Origin: Acidobacteria bacterium RIFCSPLOWO2_12_FULL_66_21
GTDB lineage: Bacteria > Acidobacteriota > Vicinamibacteria > Vicinamibacterales > 2-12-FULL-66-21
NCBI GenBank assembly: GCA_001767455.1
Contig: MELC01000091.1
Location: 62,001 to 126,000 of the forward strand
Direction: 5' to 3'
DNA length: 64,000 nt
Below, one piece after another: positions 1 through 51,923 of this stretch (the stretch's first letter is position 1; every line of letters starts with the position of its first letter). Below the pieces are notes generated by a model. It saw only the letters and a list, made by a program, of their open reading frames with translations, was not told the DNA's origin and searched no databases. Both the position numbers and the translations under genes were made by a program.

Positions 1-26
1 ACGGCAAGATCGTGGAGGCCACCTGA
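1..26 (+). CDS. ftsE: FtsE C-terminus (partial)
   Basis: Only the last codons are in the window. The frame reads GKIVEAT and then a TGA that overlaps the ftsX start codon (TGATG). The identity rests on the neighbour: FtsE is the cytoplasmic ABC ATPase that partners FtsX and is normally encoded directly upstream with such an overlap. The visible peptide alone would not identify it. Confidence 0.6.
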
Positions 27-916
27 TGCGCGCCATTCGGTACTCGATCGCCGAGGCCGCGGCGAGCCTCTGGCGCGGGGGCGGCGCGGCGTTTGTCGCC
101 GTCCTCACCATCGCCGCCGGTCTGTTCGTGCTCGGCTTCTTCCTCGTCGTCAACGCGAACGTGCAGCGGGTGGTGGGGCGGTGGAGCGAGTCGGCCGAAC
201 TGTCGGTGTACTTGAAGGACGGGGCGACGGCCGACCAGCTGCGGACGGTCGACGAGCTGATCGCGCGAAGCGGCCTCGCCGCCCACCGGGAGTACGTCTC
301 CAAGCAGCAGGCGGGCGCCCGGTTCAAGCAGGATTTCCCCGATCTGGCGCGAAGCTCCGACGAGCTCGACCGCAACCCGTTCCCGGCGTCGGTTGACGTG
401 CGCCTGCGGCCGGAGGCGCGGACGGCCGGTGATGCCATCGAGTCGCTGGCCGGCGCGATCCAAAGCGTCGAGGGCGTGGCCGACGTCCGGTACGATCGCC
501 GCTGGCTCGACCGCCTCAGTGCCATGGTGACGCTCGTGCGCGGCATCGGCCTCGCGATTCTCGTGGTGCTCGCGGTGGCGTCAGCGCTGACGGTCGCCAA
601 TGTCGTCAGGCTCGCGGCCTCCGCGCGGCGCGACGAAATCGAGATCATGCAGCTCGTCGGAGCGCCGTTCGGCTACGTGCGCGGCCCGTTCGTCGTCGAA
701 GGAATCCTGCAAGGGGGGCTGGGCGCCCTCGTCGCCGTCCTCGCCTTGTGGGGATTGTTCGCGCTGGCACGATTTCGCTACGGCCACTTTGCCGCCGATG
801 CGATCGGTCTTTCGACGATTACATTTCTGCCACTGCAGGTGTGGGCGATCGTGGTGGCGGGCGGTATGCTCCTGGGATGCGCCGGCGGTTTCGCCGTCGC
901 CCGCCGCGTGCGATAA
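26..916 (+). CDS. ftsX: Cell division protein FtsX
   Basis: Inner-membrane subunit of the FtsEX complex, which couples ATP hydrolysis to activation of peptidoglycan hydrolases at the division site. The 296 residues show the family layout: cytoplasmic N-terminus, TM1 at about 20-43, a periplasmic loop to about 165, then three more membrane segments near 170-195, 220-248 and 269-291. The loop carries the usual 'NPFPASVDV' region near residues 121-130. The start overlaps the ftsE stop, so the pair is translationally coupled. The length is normal for the family. No hydrolase or adaptor gene follows directly. Confidence 0.95.
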   Translation: MRAIRYSIAEAAASLWRGGGAAFVAVLTIAAGLFVLGFFLVVNANVQRVVGRWSESAELSVYLKDGATADQLRTVDELIARSGLAAHREYVSKQQAGARFKQDFPDLARSSDELDRNPFPASVDVRLRPEARTAGDAIESLAGAIQSVEGVADVRYDRRWLDRLSAMVTLVRGIGLAILVVLAVASALTVANVVRLAASARRDEIEIMQLVGAPFGYVRGPFVVEGILQGGLGALVAVLALWGLFALARFRYGHFAADAIGLSTITFLPLQVWAIVVAGGMLLGCAGGFAVARRVR

Positions 917-920
917 CGAC

Positions 921-1001
921 GATGTGGAGCGGACGGGATGGAGCCGGCGACGAAGCGCCGGTGCAATGAAGGCCGCTGGTCGGAGTGCAGGGGGCCCCGA
1001 C
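921..1001 (+). repeat. Two-hairpin dispersed element, copy 1
   Basis: Intergenic element after ftsX. Hairpin I has arms CCGGCG and CGCCGG around an ACGAAG loop (944-961). Hairpin II has arms GTCGGAG and CCCCGAC (979-985 and 995-1001) around TGCAGGGGG. The same arrangement, with compensatory changes in both stems, recurs upstream of rimM. Related copies precede other start codons in this window. Confidence 0.65.
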
Positions 1002-1041
1002 GAAATGTCGGTCGAGCTTGAAGATTCGGTCGCGGTTGCGG

Positions 1042-9171: not shown

Positions 9172-10093
9172 GGGAACTCCTTTGCCTTCTTGTCGAGAAC
9201 ACTCGAATTGTATCACGCGCCTCCTCCAGCTAGCCGGCGGCCGCACGTTTGAGTGGGCGCTGCTTTTTGCGGCCGTGGCGACAGTCACGCCGGTCACGGC
9301 GCAGTTTTCCTCCGGCGTGAACGTGGTGGAGGTCTATGCCAGCGTGACCGACCCCTCGGGCCAGCCGGTCAAGGGACTCACGCGGCAGGACTTCGAGGTG
9401 CGCGAAAACGGGGAGCTGCAGGCGGTTTGCAGCTTCATCGTCGGCCGGTTCCCGCTGTCGGCCGCGCTGGCCCTCGATCGCAGCTTCAGCATGGCGGGAG
9501 ATCGGCTCGCACGGGTCAAGGCGGGCGCGCGCGCGTTCCTCGAGGCGCTCGGTCCCACGGACGAAGCGATGATCGTGGCGGTGGGATCGCGGGTCGAGAC
9601 GCTGGCGCCGCTCTCGACGAAACGTCAGGAGCAGCTCGACGCGGTCGCGCGCGTCGACGCGTTCGGGACGACCGGTCTCCACGACGCCGTCATCACCGCC
9701 ATCGACGCCGTGCAGCCCGCGAAGGGACGCCGCGCGCTGGTGCTGCTGTCGGACGGCAACGATCGGTACAGCACCGCCTCGGCCGGCGACGCACTGGGCC
9801 ACGCGCGGGGCGCCGACGTCATGATCTATCCGGTCGCTTTGGGACGGACGCGGCCGCCGCTCTTCGCCGAGCTCGCGACCCTCACGGGCGGGCGCTCCTT
9901 CCACGTGACCGATCCGAAGCGGCTGCCCGACACGCTTCGCGCGATCGCCGGCGAGCTGCACGAGCAATATCTGCTTGGCTACACACCGTCTCGTCCTCTC
10001 GTCCCGGGCGGGAACGAGTGGCGCTCGATTTCAGTCACCATCAAACGGTCCGGCCTGCAGGTGAAGGCGAGGGACGGATACCTGGTGAAGTAA
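9170..10093 (+). CDS. Secreted VWFA-domain protein (acidobacterial type)
   Basis: Predicted exported protein. A hydrophobic stretch 'WALLFAAVATVTPVTA' looks like a signal peptide with cleavage before QF. An N-terminal beta domain ('VYASVTDPSGQPVKGLTRQDFEVRENG') is followed by a von Willebrand A fold with a MIDAS-like 'LDRSFSM' and 'LLSDGND'. This matches the VWFA-related domain family typical of Acidobacteria. It ends 'VKARDGYLVK'. The start is uncertain: the in-frame ATG at 9170 overlaps the tatA start on the other strand and gives a long n-region, and no better ATG/GTG precedes the signal peptide. Function unknown, probably adhesion or protein-protein contact. Confidence 0.8.
   Translation: MGTPLPSCREHSNCITRLLQLAGGRTFEWALLFAAVATVTPVTAQFSSGVNVVEVYASVTDPSGQPVKGLTRQDFEVRENGELQAVCSFIVGRFPLSAALALDRSFSMAGDRLARVKAGARAFLEALGPTDEAMIVAVGSRVETLAPLSTKRQEQLDAVARVDAFGTTGLHDAVITAIDAVQPAKGRRALVLLSDGNDRYSTASAGDALGHARGADVMIYPVALGRTRPPLFAELATLTGGRSFHVTDPKRLPDTLRAIAGELHEQYLLGYTPSRPLVPGGNEWRSISVTIKRSGLQVKARDGYLVK
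9207..9215 (-). promoter_or_regulatory. Extended -10 promoter for tatA
   Basis: On the minus strand TGATACAAT matches an extended -10 (TGn plus TACAAT). Transcription would begin near 9200, giving a leader of about 29 nt that contains the tatA AGGAG. Confidence 0.45.
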
Positions 10094-10094
10094 G

Positions 10095-10209
10095 CTGCCC
10101 GCTGCCAGCCGCCAGCTGCCAGCTGCCAGCTGCCAGCTTCCAGCTTCCAGCTTCCAGGGTTCAGCCTTGCAAAGCTGGACGCTGGAAACTGGAAACTGGA
10201 AACCGGAAA
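10095..10209. repeat. Heptamer array (GCCAGCT/TTCCAGC then CTGGAAA)
   Basis: Intergenic array of 7-bp words: GCCAGCT and CTTCCAG units on the left, then CTGGAAA units on the right. The halves are largely complementary, so the region could fold into one long hairpin. It lies between the convergent 3' ends of the VWFA and oxidoreductase genes and might also act as a bidirectional terminator. Confidence 0.85.
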
Positions 10210-11367
10210 CTATTGTCTCAACGCGAACAACTCCACCATCAACCCCCACTCGAGCGTCGCGAGGAGCCGGCGGCGCAGATGACGGAATGTCTGCTGGCCG
10301 GAGATGAGGTCGGCGGCGACCTCGCGGATCCGTCCGCTGCGCTGGAGCGCGCTCACGAAGAGGCCCATGAACGCCGGCCTGAAGAACCGCGCCTTGAAAC
10401 GCGCCGATCGGAGCAGCTCCTCGATCACCGTCGCGCGCAGCTCGGTGGTATAGCGCGCCGCCGGATCGGCGGCACCGAGGCTCCGAGCGGCCGCCTCAGC
10501 GGACTGCAGCGCGTAATAGATCCCCTCGCGCGTGATCGGATCGACGAGGCCGGCGGCATCGCCGAGCAGCATCCATCCGGGCCCGGCGTGGCGCTCGCGC
10601 CTCAGCGCCGCTTCGCCGAGCGACGGGATGGGCCAGCTGTACTGCGTGATGCCGGCGTCACGGTCCTCGACGTGCGCGGCGATCCAGCGGCGGGCCGCGG
10701 CGAGCAGGACGCCGGACGTCGTGATGTCGGCCTGTGCGCAGATGCCGACGGCGAGATGATCGGGCCTCGGAAACGCCCACAAGTACCCGGGTGGATCGTC
10801 CGTGAACGCGATGTCGATCGACGCCGACGTGGCCCCGCGGACATAGCAGCCCGCCGCGATCGACAGGTCGGCCCGGTCGAAGGGCCGCGAGACGCGTCGC
10901 CGCACGAGGCTGCCCGGTCCATCCGCTCCGAGCAACCAGTCGCCGCGGATGTCGCCGTTGCGCGTCGCCACGATCCAGCCGCTCCCGTCAGGCCGCACGT
11001 CCTGGACGTGCGAGCGGAGCGGCCGCGCGCCCGCGGAGACCGCGGCGCCGAGCAGCGCGCCGTCGAAATCGCGCCGCGCCACGATCGCGAGTGCCGGCGT
11101 CGCCGCGGTCGGTCGAAGCGCGACGCGTGCCGCGCGCCCGCGGTGCTCGAACGTCGCACTCTCAATCGCGACCCGTGGCACGGCGGGCAGGTCCACCGAC
11201 TGGCGCACAAGATCGAGCGCGCGCATCGTGACGCCGCCGCCGCACGGCTTCTCACGCGGATGGCTCCCGTCCACCAGAGCCACCGACGCGCCGCGGGCGG
11301 CAAGCCGGCACGCCGCGAGGCAACCCGCGGGACCGGCGCCGACGACGATCGTGTCAAACCGATCCAT
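10210..11367 (-). CDS. FAD-dependent geranylgeranyl-reductase-family oxidoreductase
   Basis: 385-residue flavoprotein. An N-terminal Rossmann motif GAGPAG (10-15), the substrate-side PCGGGV motif (41-46) typical of the geranylgeranyl reductase/digeranylgeranylglycerophospholipid reductase family, 'GADGPGSLVRR' near 150 and a second FAD motif GDAAG near 270. The probable role is hydrogenation of an isoprenoid chain (quinone, lipid or polyprenol) or a related oxidation. The substrate cannot be told from sequence. The gene begins just downstream of a long palindromic element that may form its leader. Confidence 0.8.
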   Translation of the reverse strand: MDRFDTIVVGAGPAGCLAACRLAARGASVALVDGSHPREKPCGGGVTMRALDLVRQSVDLPAVPRVAIESATFEHRGRAARVALRPTAATPALAIVARRDFDGALLGAAVSAGARPLRSHVQDVRPDGSGWIVATRNGDIRGDWLLGADGPGSLVRRRVSRPFDRADLSIAAGCYVRGATSASIDIAFTDDPPGYLWAFPRPDHLAVGICAQADITTSGVLLAAARRWIAAHVEDRDAGITQYSWPIPSLGEAALRRERHAGPGWMLLGDAAGLVDPITREGIYYALQSAEAAARSLGAADPAARYTTELRATVIEELLRSARFKARFFRPAFMGLFVSALQRSGRIREVAADLISGQQTFRHLRRRLLATLEWGLMVELFALRQ

Positions 11368-11378
11368 CTTTTGACCGT

Positions 11379-11447
11379 CCGGCCCCCTGCTTGCCTCGCC
11401 GAAGCGACTGTTTCGCCCGGGATCGCGAAGGCGGGCACCCCGGCCGC
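11379..11447 (-). repeat. Long-form palindromic element, inverted copy
   Basis: Read on the minus strand it begins GGCCGGGGTGCCCGCCTTCG and ends GCTTCGGCGAGGCAAGCAGG, followed by GGGCC. It matches the element at 12140-12208 in opposite orientation. Its 3' side lies about 12 nt upstream of the oxidoreductase ATG, the same relative position other copies hold upstream of their genes. Confidence 0.7.
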
Positions 11448-12007: not shown

Positions 12008-12019
12008 ACGCGGCCGGAA

Positions 12020-12208
12020 TGGAGCCGGCGCGCGAGGAGCGGAGCGGGGCGGAGGGCCGCCGCGAGCGACGAGCTTGGCGAGGTACAAGGGGGCCCCGCC
12101 ATTCAGCAGACGAAAGCGCCGGCGCACTGGAGGCCGCTAGTCGGGGTGCCCGCCTTCGCGACCGCGGACAGAACGGTCGCTTCGGCGAGGCAAGCAGGGG
12201 GCCCCGAC
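12020..12208 (+). repeat. Composite palindromic element, two adjacent copies
   Basis: The first copy ends with arms GGCGAGG (12077-12083) and CCCCGCC (12094-12100). The second has a GTCGGGG arm at 12140-12146, then an inserted CCGCCTTCGC...GCTTCGGCGAGGC segment, then the CCCCGAC arm at 12202-12208, 12 nt before the next ATG. The long insert is the same as in the inverted element at 11379-11447, so the stress gene at 11501 is flanked by inverted copies. Confidence 0.7.
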
Positions 12209-12220
12209 GATGGAGAATAG

Positions 12221-12673
12221 ATGACCGACAACGGCAGGTTCACGATCGGCGTGTTTCAGGATATTGCGTGGGCGCGGCGCGGCATCGAAGCGCTGCTGCA
12301 GGACGGGTTCGTGCCCGAATCCCTGACCGTCATGGCGAAGGAATCCACGGAGGCGGAGTCGCTCATCGAATCCACCCTCGGCGCTCCGCCCGACCATTTC
12401 GAGCTGAAGGCCCTCGGTCCCGTCGTGGCCCGCGGGCCGCTCGTCGCCGCGCTCCAGGGAAATGACCAGGGGCTCACGACTGCCGGGCTGGGTCGCGCGA
12501 TCACGCGCGCCGGTTTCCAGTCGCACGACGGCTACATCTTCGAGACCCTCACGGGCCGTGGCGGGGTGCTGGTCGGGGTTCGGAACGAGCCGCGGTCGGC
12601 CGACGCGCTCGCGAAGCTCCACTCGTACGGCGGCGGCAACGCCGCCATCGGCGCGTGGACCGGGCGCGTATGA
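12221..12673 (+). CDS. Stress-type protein (paralogue B)
   Basis: 150 residues. The N-terminal 'FTIGVFQDIAWARRGIEALLQDGFVPESLTVMAKE' has the same fold pattern as the gene at 11501. The central 'LGPVVARGPLVAALQG' corresponds to that gene's 'GIGSIVAAGPLSAGL', and the C-terminus contains 'ITRAGFQSHDGYIFETLTGRGGVLVGVR'. Probably a tandem paralogue separated by repeat elements. GGAG lies 6-9 nt before the ATG just after the palindromic element. Function unknown; a stress-response role is inferred from fold-level resemblance. Confidence 0.65.
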   Translation: MTDNGRFTIGVFQDIAWARRGIEALLQDGFVPESLTVMAKESTEAESLIESTLGAPPDHFELKALGPVVARGPLVAALQGNDQGLTTAGLGRAITRAGFQSHDGYIFETLTGRGGVLVGVRNEPRSADALAKLHSYGGGNAAIGAWTGRV

Positions 12674-13748: not shown

Positions 13749-13759
13749 ATACTCGAAGT

Positions 13760-13822
13760 CTCCAGCTTCCAGTTCCCAGCTTCCAGCGAATTGCTGGGAG
13801 CTGGGAGCTGGAAACTGGCAGT
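13760..13822. repeat. Heptamer array (CTTCCAG / CTGGGAG)
   Basis: Words CTTCCAG and TTCCCAG on the left, CTGGGAG and CTGGAAA on the right, around a short GAATTG centre. The halves are reverse complements, so a hairpin is likely. It lies between the convergent tonB and metalloprotease genes. Confidence 0.85.
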
Positions 13823-13845
13823 TTGTCCCGTCGCCTTTCTTCTTC

Positions 13846-16431: not shown

Positions 16432-16469
16432 GGGCGGCTTTATATCACAAGCCGTCAGTGCCGAGGGCC

Positions 16470-16540
16470 GATTGCAGAGTGCCGATTGACGGATTGGCGA
16501 TTGCCGATTGGCGATCGACGGATTGACGATTGTCGATTGG
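16470..16540. repeat. GATTGNC-type heptamer array
   Basis: Tandem CGATTGG/CGATTGC/GGATTGA words. It includes GGCGATCGACGGATTG, also present in reverse complement at 20446-20527, so the two secreted-protein genes in between are bounded by inverted arrays. It supplies the region upstream of the gene at 16578. Confidence 0.8.
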
Positions 16541-16577
16541 GGTGATCCACCGAACGGCGGCGTATAGTGGTCGCGTC

Positions 16578-20413: not shown

Positions 20414-20445
20414 AAAAAGGCCGGCGGGAATCTCTCCCGCCGGCC
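20412..20445 (-). terminator. Rho-independent terminator of groESL
   Basis: An 11-bp perfect GC-rich stem (GGCCGGCGGGA / TCCCGCCGGCC) with a 5-nt loop. On the minus strand it is followed by a run of seven T, so it is a strong intrinsic terminator for transcription arriving from groEL. It also lies at the very end of the plus-strand gene, whose stop codon is at 20411-20413. Confidence 0.85.
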
Positions 20446-20527
20446 CAATCGCCAATCGCCAATCCGTCGATCGCCAATCGCCAATCGCCAATCCGTCGAT
20501 CGGCAATCGGCAATCACCAATCGGCAA
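20446..20527. repeat. CAATCGC-type heptamer array
   Basis: Tandem CAATCGC, CAATCCG and CAATCGG units between the groEL stop and its terminator, so it is probably transcribed as the groESL 3' UTR. It is the reverse-complement relative of the array at 16470-16540. Confidence 0.85.
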
Positions 20528-27512: not shown

Positions 27513-29819
27513 GTGGCCACCACCCTTCGCGACGCGCGGCGCCCGACGCTTCCGGCCCGGCCGGCCCCGCGCCCGCCTGTCCGCGAGCGCCGTCCGTTCC
27601 GCGACAATCCGCGCCTGATCCTGATCGGGCTGGTCCTGCTGCTGGCCGCGCTGGCGGGGATGGTGTGGCTCGCCGATCAGTCCCGCGAGCTCAACCCCGA
27701 CTTCCTCAGCGAGGTCGTGCTCTACGCGCTGTCGGCGGCCGACCTGACGATGGTGATCGCGCTCGTCTTCGTGCTGGCGCGCAACATCGTGAAGCTGGCG
27801 GTCGAGCGGCGGCGCGGCCTGCCGTTCTCGAGATTCCGCGCGAAGCTGGTGCTCGCGATGCTCGGCCTGACGATCGTGCCGTCCGTGCTCGTGCTGCTCG
27901 TCGGCGGCGAGCTGATTCGCAGCAGCATGGAGCAGTGGTTCAGCGACCCGGTGGACGTCGTGCTCCGCTCCGCCACCGAGATCGCCGGCGACTACTACCA
28001 GGAGCGCGAGAAGATCGTGCGGGACCACGTGCTCCGGATCGCGCGCGCGCTGCCGGCGGAGGCCGTCGACACCGGCGACCTCGAGGCGGTCCGCGCGCTC
28101 ATCGGTCCGGAAGTGACGCAGCGCGGCGTGGGTCTTGTCGAGGTCTACCGCATCCCGGCCGCCGGCGCCGCGCCCGGGCCGCTCGTCGCCGTCGAATCGC
28201 CGTCGTTGCCGCGCGGGCACGTGCGCGCGTCCGCGGATCGCCTGGCCGCGAAAGTCGCCGCCGGCGACGACCGCCCCGTGCACGAGCAACTCGCCGAGGG
28301 GGGAGAGCTCGTGCGGGCGGGCGCGCTGGTCCGCGACCCCGCCACGAACCGGACCGTGGGCGTCGTCATCGCCAGCGATCACCTGGCTGACAACCTCGCG
28401 CAGCACTCGAGGCGGATCAAGGAGGCGTTCGAGAACTACAACCAGTTGCGCGTCCTGAAGCGCCCGCTCGAAGGCGTGTACCTCTCCCTCTTCCTGATGA
28501 TGACGTTGATGATTCTCGTCAGCGCCACCTGGATGGGGCTGTACCTGGCCAAGCGCATCACGCGGCCCGTCCAGATGCTGGCCGCCGGCGCGCGCGAGAT
28601 CGGCGCGGGCCGGCTCGATCATCGCATCGAGCCGGAGACGCGCGACGAGTTCGGCTCGCTCGTCGAGGCGTTCAACACGATGGCCGGCGAGCTGGCGGCC
28701 AGCCAGCGCAAGCTCGATCGCTCGCGCCTCGATCTGGAGCGGAAGAACCAGCAACTGGACGAGCGGCGCCGGTACATCGAAACCGTGCTCGAGCGAATCG
28801 CGACCGGCGTCGTCTCGGTCGGCGCCGACGGGTGCATCGAGACGATCAACGCCGCGGCGGTGCGGCTGCTCGGGGTCGAAGCCGGCGTCATCGGCGCGCC
28901 GCTCGACGCCGCCTTCGGCCGGGAGGACCTGCGCCCGCTGGGCGCGCTCGTGCAGCGCGTCCACGCCGGCCGCGCCGAGCCGGCGGCGCAGGAGATCGCG
29001 CTCACGCGCGAGGGTCGCGAACTGCATCTCGCGGCGGCCGCCACGCCGCTCCAGGGAGAGGACGGTGCGCCCGCCGGCGCCGTCCTGGTGTTCGACGACG
29101 TGACGCCGCTGATACGGACGCAGCGCGTCGCCGCGTGGCGCGACGTGGCGCGGCGGCTCGCGCACGAAATCAAGAACCCGCTGACGCCGATCCAGTTGTG
29201 CGCCGAGCGGATGCGCCGCCACTTCGGCTCGGCGCCTCCCGCGTCGCGGGCGCTCGTGGACGAATGCACGACGACCATCGTCGGCGAAGTGGAATCGCTG
29301 AAGGCGCTCGTCGACGAGTTCGCCCAGTTCGCCCGGATGCCGGCGCCGCGCGCCGTCCCGTCCGATCTGGATGGCGTCATCCGCGATACGCTCGCGCTCT
29401 ACAAGGGCCTGTTCGGCCAGATTCGGCTCGAGCACCGTCCGGCCGAGGGGCTGCCGCCCGTGCGGATCGACGTCGAACAGATCCGCCGCGTCGTGATCAA
29501 CCTGGTCGACAACGCGGTCGAGGCCCTGGGCGCCGCCGCGGCGCCGCTGCGGCCGGGCGGCGACCCCCCGTCGATCGTGGTCGCGACGGGGCACGACCCC
29601 GGCCACGGCGTCGCGCGCATCACCATCGCCGACAACGGGCCGGGCATCCCGCCGGCCGATCGCGACAAGCTGTTCATGCCGTACTACTCGACCAAACGGC
29701 GCGGCAGCGGCCTGGGCCTCGCCATCGTCCGCCGCATCATCGCCGAGCACGGCGGCAACATCGAAGTCGCCGACAACGTGCCGGCCGGGACGGTATTTAC
29801 GATAGAGCTGCCGGTGTGA
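27513..29819 (+). CDS. ntrY: NtrY-type sensor histidine kinase
   Basis: 768 residues. Three or four membrane helices in the first 330 residues enclose a periplasmic sensor loop. Then come a HAMP domain ('AKRITRPVQMLAAGAREIGAGRLDHRI'), a PAS-like domain ('ETVLERIATGVVSVGADGCIETIN'), a HisKA box with H551 ('RRLAHEIKNPLTP'), and an HATPase domain with N ('VINLVDNAVEAL'), G1 ('DNGPGIP') and G2 ('GSGLGLAIVRRIIAEHGG'). GTG start. It pairs with the NtrX regulator downstream. The signal is unknown; NtrYX is linked to nitrogen, redox or envelope sensing in other bacteria. Confidence 0.93.
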   Translation: MATTLRDARRPTLPARPAPRPPVRERRPFRDNPRLILIGLVLLLAALAGMVWLADQSRELNPDFLSEVVLYALSAADLTMVIALVFVLARNIVKLAVERRRGLPFSRFRAKLVLAMLGLTIVPSVLVLLVGGELIRSSMEQWFSDPVDVVLRSATEIAGDYYQEREKIVRDHVLRIARALPAEAVDTGDLEAVRALIGPEVTQRGVGLVEVYRIPAAGAAPGPLVAVESPSLPRGHVRASADRLAAKVAAGDDRPVHEQLAEGGELVRAGALVRDPATNRTVGVVIASDHLADNLAQHSRRIKEAFENYNQLRVLKRPLEGVYLSLFLMMTLMILVSATWMGLYLAKRITRPVQMLAAGAREIGAGRLDHRIEPETRDEFGSLVEAFNTMAGELAASQRKLDRSRLDLERKNQQLDERRRYIETVLERIATGVVSVGADGCIETINAAAVRLLGVEAGVIGAPLDAAFGREDLRPLGALVQRVHAGRAEPAAQEIALTREGRELHLAAAATPLQGEDGAPAGAVLVFDDVTPLIRTQRVAAWRDVARRLAHEIKNPLTPIQLCAERMRRHFGSAPPASRALVDECTTTIVGEVESLKALVDEFAQFARMPAPRAVPSDLDGVIRDTLALYKGLFGQIRLEHRPAEGLPPVRIDVEQIRRVVINLVDNAVEALGAAAAPLRPGGDPPSIVVATGHDPGHGVARITIADNGPGIPPADRDKLFMPYYSTKRRGSGLGLAIVRRIIAEHGGNIEVADNVPAGTVFTIELPV

Positions 29820-29950
29820 GTTTCCAGTTGCCAGTATCCAGCTTCCAGACACGTTGGCAGCTGGGAATCAGCAGGCGCGAACCGGAAGCCGGGAACTGAA
29901 TGCTGGAAGCTGGGAGCTGGGAGCTGGAAGCTGGAAGCTGGGAACTGGAA
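29820..29950. repeat. Heptamer array between ntrY and ntrX
   Basis: TTCCAGT/TTCCAGC units, an irregular centre, then GGAAGCTG/CTGGGAG/CTGGAAG units. If translated from the ATG at 29900, the right half would encode a 7-residue repeat (LEAGSWE) at the NtrX N-terminus. Otherwise its GGAAG words could serve as a ribosome binding site for GTG 29954. Confidence 0.85.
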
Positions 29951-29953
29951 GCT

Positions 29954-31333
29954 GTGCCTAAATCCACCGTCCTGATCGTCGATGATGAAGCGGGCGTGCG
30001 GTCCGCGCTGAGCGGCGTGCTCCGTGACGAAGGCTACGCGGTCGACGCCGTCGAGAGCGGCGAGGCCTGTCTCGAGCGCGTCGCGCGGACGCCGTACGAC
30101 GTCGTCGTGCTGGACATCTGGCTGCCCGGCATCGACGGCCTGGCGACGCTCGCCCGGCTGCGCGCGCGCGGCGTCGACGCCCCCGTGGTGATGATCTCGG
30201 GGCACGGCAACATCGAGTCGGCGGTGCGCGCCATCAAGCTCGGCGCGTTCGACTTCGTCGAGAAGCCGCTCTCGCTCGAGAAGACCGTGCTGGTGGTGGG
30301 CAACGCCGTCAGGCAGCGCCGCCTCGAAGCCGAGAACCGGGCGCTCAGAGAGCACGTGGACCGGCGCCTCACGATGGTGGGGGAGAGCTACGCCATGGCG
30401 CAGCTGCGCGAGCAGATCGCGATGGCCGCGCCGACCAACGGGCGCGTGCTGATCTTCGGAGAGAACGGCACCGGCAAGGAGCTGGTCGCCCGCAGCATCC
30501 ACGCGATGAGCCGCCGGCGGGCCGGGCCGTTCATCGAGGTCAACTGCGCCGCCATTCCCGAAGAGCTGATCGAGAGCGAGCTGTTCGGCCACGTCCGCGG
30601 CGCCTTCACCGGCGCGCTCGCGGATCGCCGCGGCAAGTTCGAGCTCGCCGACGGCGGCACCCTGTTCCTGGACGAGATCGGCGACATGAGCCTGAAGACC
30701 CAGGCCAAGGTGCTGCGCGCGCTGCAGGAGCAGGTGGTCGAGCCGGTCGGCGGATCGGCCACGGTCAAAGTCGACGTGCGCGTGCTCGCCGCGACGAACA
30801 AGGACCTGCCCGCCGAGATCCGCGCCGGCCGGTTCCGTGAGGACCTGTACTTCCGACTGAACGTGATTCCGATCTTCGTGCCGGCGCTACGCGATCGGGA
30901 GGCCGACATTCCGCGGCTGGCCGAGCACTTCATGGCGGATCTCGCGCGCGAGTACGGCCGCCGGCCCAAGCGCCTGGACCCGGGCGCCGCCACCAGCCTG
31001 CGCAGCTATCGCTGGCCGGGCAACGTGCGCGAGCTGCGGAACGTCATCGAGCGGCTGATGATCATGGTGCCGGGCGAGGTCATCACCCTGAACGATCTGG
31101 TGTTTCTCGAGGGCGCATCGGCCACCGTCGCCGCCGCGCCGGGGATGCCCCCGCTGACGCTGCACGACGCGCGCGAGCGCTTCGAGCGCGACTACATCCT
31201 GCGCGCGCTCGCGGCCGAGCAGGGCAACATCTCGCGGACCGCTGACGTGCTCGGCGTGGAGCGCAGCAACTTGTACCGGAAGATGCGCGCGTTCGGCATC
31301 GTCCCCGCTCGCAAGGACGAGGAGATCGCCTAG
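29954..31333 (+). CDS. ntrX: NtrX-type sigma54-dependent response regulator
   Basis: Three-domain regulator. Receiver 1-120 with D10, D11 and phospho-acceptor D54 ('VVLDIWLPG'). AAA+ sigma54-activator domain with Walker A GENGTGKE (169-176) and the GAFTGA loop (216-221), then 'LFLDEIGD'. A C-terminal Fis-type helix-turn-helix ('[26 protein letters not shown]'). Start taken at GTG 29954 ('[12 protein letters not shown]'), giving about 459 residues. An upstream ATG at 29900 would add 18 residues encoded entirely by the heptamer array. Activates sigma54 promoters for its partner NtrY; targets not visible. Confidence 0.92.
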
Positions 31334-34649: not shown

Positions 34650-35911
34650 GTGCGCCTCCGCTGGCGACGGCGGAAATCATCGCGGTCGGGAGCGAGCTGC
34701 TCGGTCTTCACCGCCTCGACACGAACTCTCTCTTTCTCGCCGATCGGCTCGCGGCGCTCGGGATCGACCTGCGCGCGAAAGCGGTCGTGGGCGACAACCG
34801 CCACGATCTTGCTGCGCTCTTCCGCCAGGCGTTGTCGCGCGTGGACCTTGTCGTGCTCACCGGCGGGCTCGGCCCGACCGACGACGACCTGACACGGGAC
34901 GTGGTCGCGGATGCACTCGGGCGACCGATGTCGGAGGATGCGGACATCCTGGCGTGGATCGAGAGGCGATTCGCGAGCCGCGGGATGCGCATGCCGGGCG
35001 TGAATCGACGGCAGGCGCAGGTGCCGCGCGGCGCGGCCGTTCTTCCCAATCCCAACGGCACGGCTCCGGGACTTCTGCTCGAGGCCGGCCATCGCCTGGT
35101 CGTGCTGCTGCCGGGTCCGCCGCGCGAGATGCAGCCCATGTTCGACGCGCTCTGCCGCGGTCCGCTGCTCGAACGCGCCGGCGCCGAACGCGTGCAGCGC
35201 GTCTCGCTCTTCATCGCCGGACGATCGGAGTCCCACGTCGAGGAGCTCGCGCAGCCGATCTACACCCGCTGGACGGGGGAGACGCCGCCGATCGACACGA
35301 CGATCCTCGCGTCGCCGGGACAGATCGAGCTGCATCTGAGCGTGCGGTCCGCCGACGCGGACGGAGCCGCGCGCCGGCTCTCCGAGGCTCGCGACGAGCT
35401 GCTCGCGGCGCTCGGTCCTGATGTGTTCAGCACGGACGGCCGCTCGATGGAGGAGATTGTCGGCGACCTCCTTCGCGCGAAGCACCTGACAATCGCCGCC
35501 GCGGAATCGTGCACCGGCGGCCTCCTGATGTCGCGCCTGACGGACGTGCCGGGGAGTTCCGACTACGTGCTCGCCGGGGTGGTGGCGTATGCCGACGCGG
35601 CGAAGACCGCGCTCGCCGGAGTGGCGCCCGAGCTCATTGCCGCCTGCGGCGCGGTGAGCGAACCGGTCGCCGTCGCGCTCGCCGACGGCATTCGCGCCCG
35701 GGCCGGCGCAGATCTCGGCGTCGGGATCACGGGCATCGCGGGCCCGAGCGGCGCAACGCCCGACAAGCCGGTCGGCACCGTAGCCATCGCGCTCTCGGGA
35801 CCCGATGGTCCCGCCCGCGTGCGCACCTTCCGCTTTCCCGGCGGCCGCGCGCAGGTGAAGTTCTCCTCGACGCAGGCCGCGCTCGACATGGTGAGGCGGG
35901 CGCTGACATAG
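34646..35911 (+). CDS. cinA: CinA family protein (nicotinamide-nucleotide amidase/pyrophosphatase)
   Basis: 421 residues. The N-terminal MoaB/COG1058 domain ('AEIIAVGSELLGLHRLDTNSLFLADRLAALG', 'LTGGLGPTDDDLTRDVVADALG', 'GTAPGLLLE', 'LLPGPPREM') would hydrolyse ADP-ribose or similar nucleotides. The C-terminal CinA amidase domain ('AAAESCTGGLLMSRLTDVPGSSDYVLAGVVAYADAAKTALAGV', 'GITGIAGPSGATPDKPVGTVAIAL') deamidates NMN in pyridine-nucleotide salvage. The start is the ATG overlapping the pgpA stop. Confidence 0.95.
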   Translation: MSAPPLATAEIIAVGSELLGLHRLDTNSLFLADRLAALGIDLRAKAVVGDNRHDLAALFRQALSRVDLVVLTGGLGPTDDDLTRDVVADALGRPMSEDADILAWIERRFASRGMRMPGVNRRQAQVPRGAAVLPNPNGTAPGLLLEAGHRLVVLLPGPPREMQPMFDALCRGPLLERAGAERVQRVSLFIAGRSESHVEELAQPIYTRWTGETPPIDTTILASPGQIELHLSVRSADADGAARRLSEARDELLAALGPDVFSTDGRSMEEIVGDLLRAKHLTIAAAESCTGGLLMSRLTDVPGSSDYVLAGVVAYADAAKTALAGVAPELIAACGAVSEPVAVALADGIRARAGADLGVGITGIAGPSGATPDKPVGTVAIALSGPDGPARVRTFRFPGGRAQVKFSSTQAALDMVRRALT

Positions 35912-36027
35912 ACAGCGGGCAGCTGGCGGCAGGCAGCAGGCAGCAGGCAGTGAGTCGAGCTGTCAAGCTGTCAGCGTGACGGCGTGATCCACTGCAAGCT
36001 GCCTGCTGCCCGCTGCCAGCTGACAGA
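35912..36027. repeat. Heptamer array (GGCAGCA / CTGCCTG)
   Basis: GGCAGCA units, then GTCAAGCTGTCAGC, then complementary CTGCCTG/CTGCCCG/CTGCCAG units. A long hairpin is likely. It separates cinA from thpR. Confidence 0.8.
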
Positions 36028-42514: not shown

Positions 42515-43876
42515 ATGTTTGAATCTCTCAGCGACCGCCTCCAGGGGGTGTTTCGCTCGCTCCGCGGCGAAGCCCGGCTGACGGAAGCCACGGTGGAGGC
42601 CGCGCTGCGGGAAATCCGGCTGGCGCTGCTCGAAGCCGACGTCAATTTCAAGGTCGTCAAGGCCTTCATCGATCGCGTGCGCGATCGCGCCGTCGATCAG
42701 GAGGTCCTCAAGAGCCTGACACCCGACCAGCAGGTCGTCCGCATCGTCCGCGACGAGATGCTGGCGCTCTTCGGCGACACGCAGGGTGGGCTGCCGCCGT
42801 CGCAGGCGCATCCGCGCGTCATCCTGCTGCTCGGCCTCCAGGGGTCCGGCAAGACGACGACGGCGGGGAAACTGGGCCGGTGGCTGTCGCGGCAGGGGAA
42901 GCACCCGCTGCTCGTCTCGACCGACGTGCGCCGGCCGGCAGCCATCGCGCAGTTGACGGTCGTCGGCAAGCAGGCGGACGTCCGGGTGTTCGATCCGCCT
43001 GGCGATCTCGATCCGGTGCGCCGCGCGAGCGGCGCGATGACCGAGGCGAGAAACGCCGGGTTCGACACGGTGATTGTCGACACGGCCGGGCGCCTGCACA
43101 TCGACGAAGAGCTGATGGCCGAACTGCAGGCCATCAAGGCGGCGGTGCAGCCGGGCGATCTGCTGTATGTCGCCGACGCGATGACCGGGCAGGACGCGAT
43201 CAAGAGCGCCGGCGAGTTCAACCGGCGCGTGGGCATCAGCGGCGTCGTGCTCACGAAGATGGACGGCGACGCGCGCGGCGGCGCCGCCCTGTCGGTCGTC
43301 GGCGTCGTCGGCGTCCCGATCGCGTTTGTCGGCAGCGGCGAGCGCCTCCAGGATCTCGAGCCGTTCCATCCCGATCGCGTGGTGTCGCGCGTGCTCGGGA
43401 TGGGCGACGTGCTGTCGCTCATCGAGAAGGCGGAGCAGGCGGTCTCGCAGGAGGACGCCGAGAAGCTCGAACGCAAGATCCGGCTCGACGACTTCACGCT
43501 CGAGGATTTCCGCGATCAGCTGCGGACGATCAAGAAGATGGGGCCGCTCGAGCAGATCCTGGGGATGCTGCCGGGCATGGGCAATCTGAAGGAGCTGTCG
43601 GCGAACCGCGACAAGATCGACGACACGCAGCTCGGGCGCGTGGAGGCGATCATCAACTCGATGACGCCGAACGAACGGCGGAACCACCAGTTGATCAACG
43701 GCAGCCGCCGCAAGCGGATCGCGAAGGGCAGCGGCACGTCGGTCGAGGAGATCAACCGTCTGCTGAAGCAGTTCATGCAGATGAAGAAGATGCTGAAGTC
43801 GATTGGCGGCATGGCGGGGCTCGCGAAGAAGAAGGGCGGCCTCGGCGCGATGAAGTCGTTGATGAACAAAGGATAG
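42515..43876 (+). CDS. ffh: Signal recognition particle protein Ffh
   Basis: 453-residue SRP54 GTPase. N domain, G domain with GLQGSGKTTT (about 107-116), 'DVRRPAAIAQL', 'DTAGRLHID', 'TKMDGDARGG'. M domain from about 310 with 'MLPGMGNL' and 'KQFMQMKKMLK' that binds 4.5S RNA and signal peptides. It heads the rpsP-khpA-rimM-trmD-rplS-rnhB group. Confidence 0.98.
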   Translation: MFESLSDRLQGVFRSLRGEARLTEATVEAALREIRLALLEADVNFKVVKAFIDRVRDRAVDQEVLKSLTPDQQVVRIVRDEMLALFGDTQGGLPPSQAHPRVILLLGLQGSGKTTTAGKLGRWLSRQGKHPLLVSTDVRRPAAIAQLTVVGKQADVRVFDPPGDLDPVRRASGAMTEARNAGFDTVIVDTAGRLHIDEELMAELQAIKAAVQPGDLLYVADAMTGQDAIKSAGEFNRRVGISGVVLTKMDGDARGGAALSVVGVVGVPIAFVGSGERLQDLEPFHPDRVVSRVLGMGDVLSLIEKAEQAVSQEDAEKLERKIRLDDFTLEDFRDQLRTIKKMGPLEQILGMLPGMGNLKELSANRDKIDDTQLGRVEAIINSMTPNERRNHQLINGSRRKRIAKGSGTSVEEINRLLKQFMQMKKMLKSIGGMAGLAKKKGGLGAMKSLMNKG

Positions 43877-43998
43877 CTTCCAGTCGCCAGCTTCCAGCTT
43901 CCAGCGGGAGGTGCTGGGAACTGGAAACTGGAAACTGGGAACTCGCTGGAAACTGGAAGCTGGAAACTGGAAACTGGAAACTGGAAACTGGGAGCTGT
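43877..43998. repeat. Heptamer array between ffh and rpsP
   Basis: CTTCCAG units on the left, then CTGGAAA, CTGGGAA and CTGGAAG units up to the rpsP start. A GGGAG word within it lies about 9-10 nt before the rpsP ATG, so the array itself may supply the ribosome binding site. Confidence 0.9.
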
Positions 43999-44003
43999 AG
44001 TTC

Positions 44004-44542: not shown

Positions 44543-44545
44543 CCC

Positions 44546-44803
44546 GCCTTCGCAGCCGGGGGATTCGCCCTGCTGCTTCGGCGAGGCAGGCTGGTCCAGG
44601 AGTTCGCGAGCGAGGCGGGGTGCAGGGGTCCCCGCCGATATGAGCGCGAGCGGAGCGGAGCCCGCGACGAAGCGCGGGCGGAACGAAGCGAGCCAGGCGG
44701 GGTGCAGGGGTCCCCGCCGATATGAGCGCGAGCGGAGCGGAGCCCGCGACGAAGCGCGGGCGGAACGAAGCGAGCCAGGCGGGGTGCAGGGGTCCCCGCC
44801 GAT
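44546..44803 (+). repeat. Tandem two-hairpin elements upstream of rimM (82-bp period)
   Basis: Three hairpin II copies (44614-44636, 44696-44718, 44778-44800), each with arms GGCGGGG/CCCCGCC around TGCAGGGGT. Two intervening hairpin I copies have arms CCCGCG/CGCGGG around ACGAAG (44661-44678, 44743-44760). The period is exactly 82 bp and each hairpin II is followed by GATATGA. The last copy ends 3 nt before the rimM ATG. A partial long-form element (CCGCCTTCGC...GCTTCGGCGAGGC) lies at 44546-44588. Confidence 0.85.
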
Positions 44804-45343
44804 ATGAACGACGATTTGTTGCTCGTCGGGCGCGTTGCGCGCGCGCACGGAAATCGCGGACAGGTGATCGTCAATCCCGAAAGCGACTTTCCGGAGTCGC
44901 GGTTCAAGACGGGCAACGTGCTGCTGGTCGGGAGCGCCGCGGCGCCAGAGCCCAGGGAAATCCGCGAGGTCAGGTTCCACCAGGGGCGTCCGATTGTGCT
45001 CCTGAGCGGCGTCGAGTCGATGAACGACGCCGACGCGCTCGCCGGCGCCGAGCTCTGGATGAAGGCCGCCGCGCTCGGGCCGCTGCCGCGGGACACGTTC
45101 TACCGCCACGACCTGACCGGATGCGAGGTTGAGGACGCGGAGGGCCGGCGCATCGGCCGCGTGACCGGCGTCGAGGGCACGCTCGATCGCAGCTACCTGC
45201 TGGTCGCGAGTCCGGGCAACGGGGAAGTGATGATTCCGCTCGTCGGCGACTTCTGCCGGCGCGTCGACATCGCCGCGCGGCGGATCGTGGTGGAGTTGCC
45301 CGAAGGGTTGTTGGAGTTGAATGGGCGGGAGAAGGAATTGTGA
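44804..45343 (+). CDS. rimM: Ribosome maturation factor RimM
   Basis: 179 residues. The N-terminal RimM domain ('VGRVARAHGNRGQVIVNPESDFP') and C-terminal PRC barrel ('FYRHDLTGCEVEDAEGRRIGRVTGV', 'VMIPLVGDFCRRVDIAARRIVV'). Helps 30S 3' domain assembly near S19. No ribosome binding site other than AGGGG inside the adjoining hairpin loop. Confidence 0.94.
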   Translation: MNDDLLLVGRVARAHGNRGQVIVNPESDFPESRFKTGNVLLVGSAAAPEPREIREVRFHQGRPIVLLSGVESMNDADALAGAELWMKAAALGPLPRDTFYRHDLTGCEVEDAEGRRIGRVTGVEGTLDRSYLLVASPGNGEVMIPLVGDFCRRVDIAARRIVVELPEGLLELNGREKEL

Positions 45344-45533: not shown

Positions 45534-46301
45534 GTGAAAATCGACATCGTCACGATCTTTCCGGGGATGGTCGGCGCGCCGCTCGCGGAAGGCATCGTGG
45601 GGCGGGCGATCGGCCGCGGTCTCGTGGACCTGCAGGTGCACGACCTGCGCGACTACACGACGGACCGGCACCGGGTGGTCGATGACATGCCGTTCGGCGG
45701 CGGGCCGGGGATGGTACTCAAGCCGGAGCCGCTGTTTCGCGCGGTGGACGAGATTCGCGCGCGGCGCGGCCAGCCGGACGCGATCGTGCTGACGTCCCCC
45801 GACGGGCGCCGTTTCACGCATCGCGACGCCGAGCGCCTGAGCGCGCTCGGGCACGTCGCGATCCTGTGCGGCCGGTACGAAGGGGTCGACGAGCGCGTTC
45901 GCCTGGCGCTGGCGACCGAGGCGTTGTCGATAGGCGACTACGTGGTGTCGGGGGGCGAGCTGCCCGCGCTGGTCATCGTCGACGCGATCGCGCGTCTGGT
46001 GCCCGGCGTCGTCGGCGACGACGAGTCGGTCGCGCGCGACACGTTCGCGCGAGGCTTGCTGGACTTTCCGCAGTACACGCGGCCGGCCGAGTTTCGCGGG
46101 ATGAGAGTGCCCGACGTGCTCCTGTCCGGGCATCACCGGGAAATCGAGCGATGGCGCCGCCGCGAGGCGCTGGCGCGGACACTGGAGCGACGCCCGGACT
46201 TGCTGGAGCAGCTCCAGCTTGACGACGACGACAAAGCGCTGCTGCAGGAACTGCGGCGCGAGCGCGAACGGAGCGGAGCGAGCGGCGAAGGGCGAGCGTA
46301 G
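45534..46301 (+). CDS. trmD: tRNA (guanine-N1)-methyltransferase TrmD
   Basis: 255-residue SPOUT methyltransferase making m1G37 in tRNA. '[11 protein letters not shown]', '[17 protein letters not shown]', '[12 protein letters not shown]' and '[20 protein letters not shown]' form the trefoil-knot AdoMet site. GTG start. The last residues (about '[14 protein letters not shown]') are encoded by the left part of a dispersed repeat, which extends the C-terminus. Confidence 0.96.
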
Positions 46302-46336
46302 CGCAGTGAGCTAGGCGGGGTGCAGGGGTCCCCGCC
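46262..46336 (+). repeat. Dispersed element upstream of rplS
   Basis: The left part GAACGGAGCGGAGCGAGCGG overlaps the 3' end of trmD. Hairpin II has arms GGCGGGG (46314-46320) and CCCCGCC (46330-46336) around TGCAGGGGT, 13 nt before the rplS ATG, with GGAG in between. Confidence 0.75.
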
Positions 46337-46349
46337 GAAGGAGTAAAAG

Positions 46350-46706
46350 ATGACTGCCGTAGAGACCGTCGAGCGTGCAAACATGGTCGAGCGCCCGGCG
46401 ATCAAGCCCGGGGACACCGTTCGCGTTCACGTGAAGGTGCGTGAAGGCGACAAGGAGCGCATCCAGGTGTTCGAGGGCATGGTGATCGGGATGCACCGCG
46501 GCGGCGCGCGTGCGACCTTCACGGTCCGCAAGGTGTCGTTCGGGCAGGGGGTCGAGCGGATCTTCCCGTTGCACTCGCCGATCATCGACAAGATCGACGT
46601 GGTGCGCACCGCCCGTGTCCGCCGCGCGAAGCTGTACTTCCTGCGCGAACTCAAGGGCAAGGCCGCTCGTATGAAGGACGTCAGCCAGAAAAAGCAGACG
46701 GCCTAG
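46350..46706 (+). CDS. rplS: 50S ribosomal protein L19
   Basis: 118 residues. '[29 protein letters not shown]', '[21 protein letters not shown]' and '[18 protein letters not shown]' are diagnostic. Last ribosomal gene of the block; GGAG 8-11 nt upstream. Confidence 0.98.
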
Positions 46707-50291: not shown

Positions 50292-51089
50292 ATGCCCATG
50301 GCTGATTTCGGGAGCAAGCTGCGCGAGGCGCGCGAGCGCCGCGGCATCTCGCTGCGGCAGATTGCCGACAGCACCAAGATCGCGGCGTCCGCTCTCGAAG
50401 CGCTCGAGCGCAACGATGTCTCCAAGCTGCCAGGCGGCATCTTCAGCCGGGCGTTCGTGCGGTCGTACGCGACGGCCGTCGGCCTCGATCCGGAGCTGAT
50501 GGTCAAAGAATTCCTCGAGCGGTTCCAGGCGGAACCCGCGGCCGCCGTGCCGAAACCGGCGGCGATTACCGAGGAGGAGAGCAACTTCGAGAGCCAGCAG
50601 CGCATGGCGGCCGTCGTGCTGACGATCGTGCTGATCAGCCTTCCCATCGCTGCCGCCATCCTGTATTTTTCCTTGCGCGCACGCCGGGTCGAGGGCATTC
50701 CGGCCGCGGCGCCCGTGATCCAGGAGGGCGCCCGCGCGACGGTTCCGCCGGCGCCGGCGCCCGAGCCGGTGGTCTCGGTCCCCGCGAGTGCTGCCGCCAC
50801 CGGGGCTTCGGACTCCGCGACCTCGCCTCAGGTGATGATCGTGGAGCTGCACCCGACGGGTGTGTGCTGGATCAGCGTCACGGTGGACGGGGCGCGCGTG
50901 CTCGCCCGCGTCATGCAGCCGGGCGAGAAGACGACACTCCGGGTGAGCCAGGCCGCGGTGATCGAGGTCGGCGACGCCGGCGCGTTCGCGTTCTCCATCG
51001 ACGGCAAGCCCGCCCGGCCGCTGGGCGGGTCCGGCGAGGTGAAGACGGTCCGTATCACCCGGGAAACCGCCGGCCAGTTCCTTCGATGA
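50292..51089 (+). CDS. RodZ-like helix-turn-helix membrane protein
   Basis: 265 residues. Cytoplasmic N-terminal HTH_25 ('FGSKLREARERRGISLRQIADSTKIAASALEALERND'), one membrane helix ('AAVVLTIVLISLPIAAAILYF') and a C-terminal periplasmic DUF4115-like beta domain ('PTGVCWISVTVDGARVLARVMQPGEKTTLRVSQAAVIEVGDAGAF'). The layout is that of RodZ, which links MreB to cell-wall elongation. mreB is not in the window. ATG 50292 or 50298. Confidence 0.88.
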   Translation: MPMADFGSKLREARERRGISLRQIADSTKIAASALEALERNDVSKLPGGIFSRAFVRSYATAVGLDPELMVKEFLERFQAEPAAAVPKPAAITEEESNFESQQRMAAVVLTIVLISLPIAAAILYFSLRARRVEGIPAAAPVIQEGARATVPPAPAPEPVVSVPASAAATGASDSATSPQVMIVELHPTGVCWISVTVDGARVLARVMQPGEKTTLRVSQAAVIEVGDAGAFAFSIDGKPARPLGGSGEVKTVRITRETAGQFLR

Positions 51090-51091
51090 TG

Positions 51092-51149
51092 CGGCCGGAA
51101 CGGAGCGAGAGCGAGTGGAGGCGCCAGGCGGGGTGCAGGGGGCCCCGCC
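51092..51149 (+). repeat. Dispersed element upstream of the 51159 gene
   Basis: GGAACGGAGCGAGAGCGAGTGG followed by hairpin II with arms GGCGGGG (51127-51133) and CCCCGCC (51143-51149) around TGCAGGGGG, 9 nt before the ATG at 51159. Confidence 0.75.
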
Positions 51150-51158
51150 GATACAAAA

Positions 51159-51923
51159 ATGGACTGCGGCTTCCGGTCGCCCCTGATTGACTTCTTCCGG
51201 CGGGGAGAGGTGGCGCGCGACGTGCGGCTGCTGGCCGCGCAGGGCGCGCTCGCGCCGCGCGCGCACGAGCAGCTCGCGCTGCTCATCCTGCTCTCCGACG
51301 ATCCCGATCCGCTGATTGCCGTGAGCGCGTCGGCCACGCTCGACTCGCTGCCCGTCGAGCCGCTCCGGGCCTTCCTGGCGCGCTCGGACGTGCCGGCCGA
51401 GATGCGCGCCTTCTTCGCGGCGCGTGGCGTGACGGCCAGCGCGACGCCGGCGGGCGATGCCGACCTGCCGCTCGTGGACGCCGATCAGGCGCCGGAACCG
51501 GAGGAGGAAGACGACGGCAAGGCGGATCCGCAAATCCTCTCGTCGCTGCCGATCATCGAGCGGATGAAGCTCGCCATGAAGGGCACGCGCGCGCAGCGCG
51601 CGCAACTCATCCGGGATTCGAACAAGCTGGTGGCCGCCGCGGTGCTGAGCAGTCCGAAGCTCACCGAGGTCGAGGTCGAGTCGTTCGCGCGGATGGCCAA
51701 CGTATCGGAGGAGACCCTCCGGACGATTGCGACCAACCGCTCGTGGGTGAAGAACTACGGGGTCGTCGCGGGGCTCACGAAGAACCCGAAGACGCCGGTC
51801 GCGCTCGCGATGAGATTCCTGCAGCGGCTCAACGAACGCGATCTGAAGACACTGTCCATCGACCGGAACGTGCCCGAACCGGTGCGCATCGCCGCCCGGA
51901 AGTACATCCTGAAGCAGCTCTGA
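51159..51923 (+). CDS. Uncharacterised soluble protein
   Basis: 254 residues. No known motif. An N-terminal helical part ('DFFRRGEVARDVRLLAAQGALAPRAHEQLALLILLSDDPDPLIAV') resembles HEAT-like repeats, a short acidic linker ('PEPEEEDDGK') follows, then a conserved-looking C-terminal helical part ('RMKLAMKGTRAQRAQLIRDSNKLVAAAVLSSPKL'). No signal peptide. Its stop is 3 bp from the convergent small gene. Function unknown. Confidence 0.6.
   Translation: MDCGFRSPLIDFFRRGEVARDVRLLAAQGALAPRAHEQLALLILLSDDPDPLIAVSASATLDSLPVEPLRAFLARSDVPAEMRAFFAARGVTASATPAGDADLPLVDADQAPEPEEEDDGKADPQILSSLPIIERMKLAMKGTRAQRAQLIRDSNKLVAAAVLSSPKLTEVEVESFARMANVSEETLRTIATNRSWVKNYGVVAGLTKNPKTPVALAMRFLQRLNERDLKTLSIDRNVPEPVRIAARKYILKQL

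Follow-up and report, generated by a model that had tools for sequence, protein, structure and literature searches.

The sequence directly upstream of rimM raises the question of what kind of element comes to lie, in tandem, at the very edge of a start codon, and whether it belongs there as a control device of the downstream gene or as a mobile repeat. In the window (the whole stretch of DNA analysed, 64 kb), the hairpin II sequence GGCGGGG-TGCAGGGG[T/G]-CCCCGCC occurs at 44614-44636, 44696-44718, 44778-44800, 46314-46336 and 51127-51149, i.e. in five perfect copies compared to 0.01 in shuffled sequences. The rimM array (44614-44803) comprises 2.3 units of an 82-nt repeat, and the gaps between hairpin II and ATG that a first-pass annotation had given are correct, at 3 nt for rimM (44804), 13 nt for rplS (46350) and 9 nt for the ORF at 51159. 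The flip of one base pair in hairpin I between 944-961 and 44661-44678 is present as well. Two other observations needed amending: the exchange of the second pair of hairpin II on both sides at 979-1001 is real, but the actual sequence, GTCGGAG/CCCCGAC, contains one A.C mismatch, and the supposed long form before the gene at 12221 is a copy of the element, but one that is a composite with two nested insertions (Table 1).

Table 1. Copies of the element and neighbouring genes in the window (R1, covariance model of type A).
Feature	Position	Strand	Evidence or remark
FtsX-like gene, upstream of the 926..1010 copy	26-916		Pfam FtsX
Type A copy	926..1010	+	R1 78.1 bits; hairpin I WC form; one hairpin II arm GTCGGAG
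Composite type A copy	12010..12208	+	sequence; followed by SD GGAG and ATG 12221
Type B copy nested in hairpin I loop of the composite	~12031-12113		R1 match 12027-12109
Other palindrome in hairpin II loop of the composite	~12150-12192		CCGCCTTCG..CTTCGGCG palindrome 12150-12187
Array copy 1 upstream of rimM, 5'-truncated	44599..44642	+	R1 30.4 bits; hairpin II 44614-44636
Array copy 2, unit period 82 nt	44643..44724	+	R1 81.2 bits; repeat family D7
Array copy 3, flush with rimM start codon 44804	44725..44803	+	R1 89.1 bits
rimM	44804..45343	+	Pfam RimM, PRC_RimM
trmD	45534..46301	+	Pfam tRNA_m1G_MT; final codons run into the element
Copy directly 5' of the rplS SD	46261..46337	+	R1; orthologous filled/empty sites in relatives
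rplS	46350..46706	+	Pfam Ribosomal_L19
Short-form copy, flush with ATG 51159	51088..51158	+	R1 56.7 bits

Other repeats share the window. A second dispersed palindrome, CCGCCTTCG...CTTCGGCG, with 67 matches in the genome, is found at 11397-11434 (-), 12150-12187 (+) and 44544-44583 (+), the second of these being the copy inside hairpin II of the composite at 12010-12208. Units of 7 nt (CTGGAAA/CTGGAAG and relatives) form arrays, in part as inverted pairs, at 10093-10216, 13757-13828, 29819-29958, 35909-36027 and 43875-44001, and inverted 83-nt arms, 88% complementary and made of CGATTGG-like units, at 16459-16541 and 20444-20526.

The element itself is a two-hairpin repeat of ~80 nt, composed of a hairpin I that takes several forms, a hairpin II with the loop TGCAGGGGN, and a tail, CGATTCAAGA. 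As read from the alignment, hairpin I of type A has a P1 stem (GCGGCC/GGCCGC or GCGAGC/GCGAGC), a symmetric GGAATGGA/GGAATGAA-like internal loop and a P2 stem, and that of type B is GCGGGG/CCCCGC; hairpin II and a CGATTCAAGA-like tail are common to both types. The 3' module (hairpin II and A-rich tail) is constant and the 5' hairpin I interchangeable; nearly all copies with hairpin I retain hairpin II, and 5'-truncated copies occur. In a MAFFT alignment of 29 sequences, 85.7% of the cells in paired columns could pair, compared to 74.8% after shuffling, and 53 cells were changed on both sides compared to 20.9, a signal that was lost when the partners were slid by 1 to 3 columns. A larger set of 133 copies gave 264 double-change cells versus 104, counts that lean towards structure as this alignment was fitted to the model. 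The first-pass annotation had suggested selection on structure, to be judged from a covariance model by the significance of compensatory changes; this suggestion is supported, as covariation exceeds both shuffles (53 versus 21) and slid partners.

The mismatches tell which strand folds. Tandem G.A pairs are stable, and among the non-standard cells G.A outnumbered C.U by 280 to 18, with 30 G.U versus 20 A.C. The opposite strand would read C.T where the element strand reads G.A; selection has therefore most probably acted on the fold of the sense strand of the element itself, be it as RNA or as single-stranded DNA, between which the counts do not distinguish. This G.A versus C.U signature indicates the strand whose folding is under selection.

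Searching the whole genome (6.48 Mb, 91 contigs), we found the core TGCAGGGGNCCCCG in 51 exact copies (26 forward, 25 reverse; none for the reversed control), and R1 gave 78 matches at E<=0.1, copy numbers being approximate at several arrays where the draft assemblies have runs of N. The element is patchy within one acidobacterial order, occurring in 11 of 60 relatives distributed over four families, and an exact pattern search detected it in none of the 148 other genomes of a 149-genome phylum sample. A public scan returned at least 91 stretches and 80 loci; among the matches listed, all were in Acidobacteria MAGs except one in a Planctomycetota MAG, possibly through misbinning. No viral contig with the element was found, and in the literature library searched no paper describes a repeat of this kind from Vicinamibacter or any other acidobacterium.

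Comparison of orthologous sites bears on how copies arrive. Upstream of rplS, copies are present in this genome (G000) and in G011, G004 and G009, and a decayed one in G008, spanning three genera for the rplS leader, while the site is empty, with clean trmD-rplS junctions, in G001, G003, G005, G010, G002 and G007. The G000 and G011 copies have a very similar 3' junction and may descend from one insertion; those of G004 and G009 have differing junctions and may represent separate events. Before rimM, copies occur only in this genome among the family members read, those of G013 preceding trmD instead. The uvrA insert is in frame here and missing from seven relatives. At the inter-domain loop of UvrA (L315, L320, L321), where this genome carries the element, two of these seven, G004 and G007, carry unrelated palindromes. 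At four sites, moreover, the hairpin I loop of a type A copy harbours a type B copy. The occurrence of filled as well as empty sites at both rplS and uvrA demonstrates insertion; together with copy number, patchiness and the tandem and nested copies, they support the earlier suggestion of a REP-like palindrome with an insertion preference.

This preference was analysed on a non-redundant set of 128 sites, of which 38 are from this genome and 90 from others. Genes were predicted with a codon-usage caller of our own that had been trained on the window, and individual starts may therefore be wrong. Sense copies outnumbered antisense ones inside genes (25 versus 2, p 6e-6) and between co-directional neighbours (64 versus 11, p 3e-10), and divergent regions were occupied more often than convergent ones (21 versus 5, p 0.0025). 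The first-pass statement that orientation always follows the downstream gene is therefore true of the window, while across the genome it describes a strong bias, not a rule. In divergent regions the median gap was 21 nt to the sense gene versus 165 nt on the other side, which is only suggestive of start proximity (Wilcoxon p 0.073), and in co-directional pairs proximity is uninformative by itself, the element having little intergenic space on either side. As to the position of the element's end, ATG was enriched at offsets -1 to +1 from it (33 versus about 5), and leader copies end either flush with the ATG or immediately 5' of the SD. With spacers of 0-13 nt, the SD was absent from the spacer in 23 of 25 leaders, whereas with spacers of 14-45 nt it was present in 31 of 33, a split that is expected in part, as a short spacer leaves little room for an SD. 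Copies are co-oriented with genes, those in leaders end at the start codon or SD, and start-proximal placement is real and structured. In flush leaders, we looked 5' of the element for an SD that it might have displaced, and saw no excess (8 of 21 versus 7 of 15 in the other leader class). Reading-frame openness was rejected as the cause of the sense bias, the antisense strand being at least as open for type A. Either insertion or selection may underlie the bias.

One explanation for such placement is a cis-acting mRNA element that would govern how downstream genes are translated or how stable their mRNAs are, and that would owe its spread to this usefulness; the AGGGG of the hairpin II loop could then act as, or hide, a ribosome-binding sequence. 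The conserved sense-strand structure, the co-orientation, the near-complete partition of flush and longer leaders by the SD and the occupation of the rplS leader in three genera would all fit. However, many copies sit inside coding regions or next to tRNA genes, positions at which control of a start codon would be meaningless, and close relatives lack a copy at the same gene. Hosts of in-gene copies include UvrA, methionyl-tRNA synthetase (MetRS), an aminotransferase (Aminotran_4), an L,D-transpeptidase (YkuD), an M20 peptidase, a GH3 enzyme and an MMPL protein, and no common function was seen among the host genes looked at; nor did Rfam hold a gathering-level match, returning only weak chance matches to unrelated families. 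We consider this explanation, which would give the element a role in translational control, quite improbable.

Many of the copies inside proteins are in frame. The three frames were used in the proportion 20:8:1 (p 7e-5, somewhat generous as each tandem copy within one gene is counted), the ...GGVQG(S/A)PP... frame dominating, despite all three being about equally open. Intron-like removal is unlikely for most in-gene copies because the reading frame is kept. Several copies are also present in rpoC (L066, contig C7 100-9000), whose frame seems broken at more than one point; these were set aside because the breaks may be assembly errors.

At eight sites the 3' end of the element abuts a tRNA gene, always with the tRNA on the 3' side, compared to well under one estimated by chance. 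Six were called by ARAGORN (the 5' ends of Ser and Sec genes, in sense; the 3' ends of three Gly and one Cys gene, in antisense) and two were read by eye (L231 and L235). Six of the eight being antisense, orientation is not set by transcription alone. These junctions bear on a further possibility, that the transcribed element is reverse transcribed or reverse-spliced into sense positions, with the tRNA 3' CCA priming synthesis at tRNA sites. The joining of tRNA CCA ends to the element's 3' end is in line with this, as are the sense bias, the identity of the folded with the transcribed strand, the 5'-truncated copies and the near-constant retention of hairpin II in copies with hairpin I. Yet a reverse transcriptase is difficult to invoke, as RVT_1 has no match in this genome (rated 100% complete) or in G001, and the in-gene copies preserve the frame, so that splicing out is unnecessary. 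RNA-borne insertion is thus very unlikely.

As to other enzymes, the first-pass annotation had seen no transposase, which holds locally: none was found adjoining a copy, and no candidate enzyme (Y1_Tnp, RVT_1) tracks the element. The relevant alternative is REP/RAYT proper, in which a Y1 (HUH) transposase moves hairpins as single-stranded DNA, as for GTAG REPs. Y1_Tnp genes occur in 9 of the 11 element-bearing genomes, and hairpins, tandem copies and copies nested in loops are all present here. However, these genes are also common in element-free genomes, and the alignments have no GTAG or CGTC tag. PF01797 turns up in genomes that carry the element as well as in those that do not, and in the present genome, where Y1 proteins are encoded on contigs C71 and C62, at least ~10 kb separate it from every listed copy; as Y1_Tnp neither correlates with the element nor adjoins a listed copy, RAYT was rejected as the mobiliser, and this alternative is doubtful. 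It is one specific version of mobilisation in trans, so that our confidence in it overlaps with that in the broader reading favoured below.

Taken together, our results are best explained by a lineage-restricted, non-autonomous small mobile repeat of ~80 nt, of the general REP/RPE kind, mobilised in trans and spread among some soil Acidobacteria (probability about 0.68), which accounts for copy number, patchiness, nesting and empty sites. An enzyme acting in trans would recognise the single-stranded hairpins, single-stranded DNA being the simplest guess, and would join the 3' end of the element at open or boundary sites, such as the start-codon/SD region, the base of a tRNA fold or the apical loops of older copies. 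Purifying selection would then purge any copy that disrupts a reading frame, a start codon or a tRNA, and perhaps most antisense copies. A bolder variant seems unlikely, namely that the element inserts in a manner tied to transcription or to single strands that have folded, an enzyme of undescribed type joining the 3' end, mostly in sense, to start codons, SDs, tRNA ends and hairpin loops.

How does this mobile repeat compare with known systems? Rickettsia palindromic elements (RPE) are structured repeats of small size that occupy intergenic sites as well as in-frame positions within genes for conserved proteins (PMC2229807). Akin to them, the element forms in-frame inserts in conserved proteins (UvrA, with filled and empty sites, MetRS, Aminotran_4, YkuD, M20 and GH3), but compared by description it differs in being two-hairpin, GC-rich and acidobacterial, with a strong sense bias and one dominant frame. 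GTAG and CGTC REPs are high-copy hairpins with tandem and intragenic copies, including some in uvrA and tRNA synthetase genes; CGTC REPs lack a known transposase, and REPs measure 20-40 bp, bear a GTAG or CGTC tag and lie near the 3' ends of ORFs (PMC3733652). The element shares the high copy number, the hairpins and the tandem and intragenic copies, uvrA and a tRNA synthetase gene included, and, with CGTC REPs, the lack of a known transposase. Unlike REPs, it has ~80 nt and two hairpins, and its consensus ends, AGCGCG...CGATTCAAGA, carry neither tag; unlike for GTAG REPs, no RAYT gene flanked by repeats was found, no Y1_Tnp adjoining a listed copy. Moreover, REPs favour convergent and unidirectional regions and ORF 3' ends, whereas the element prefers divergent over convergent regions and lies near 5' ends. 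Bacterial MITEs (NEMIS/Correia, ERIC, YPAL) are non-autonomous, structured and co-transcribed with genes (PMC2229807). The element is likewise non-autonomous, structured and co-transcribed with genes, but it shows no target site duplication (shared flanks were not in excess over shuffled pairs) and no terminal inverted repeats, its 5' and 3' consensus ends not being complementary. At the core genes rplS and uvrA, orthologous sites with and without the insert provide test systems for repeat movement without an evident transposase and for the tolerance of proteins and leaders to inserts. In light of these comparisons, the element lacks defining traits of REPs and MITEs and combines features of REPs and RPEs; it represents a family of small, probably mobile acidobacterial repeats with a covarying structure, whose placement rules are opposite to those reported for REPs.
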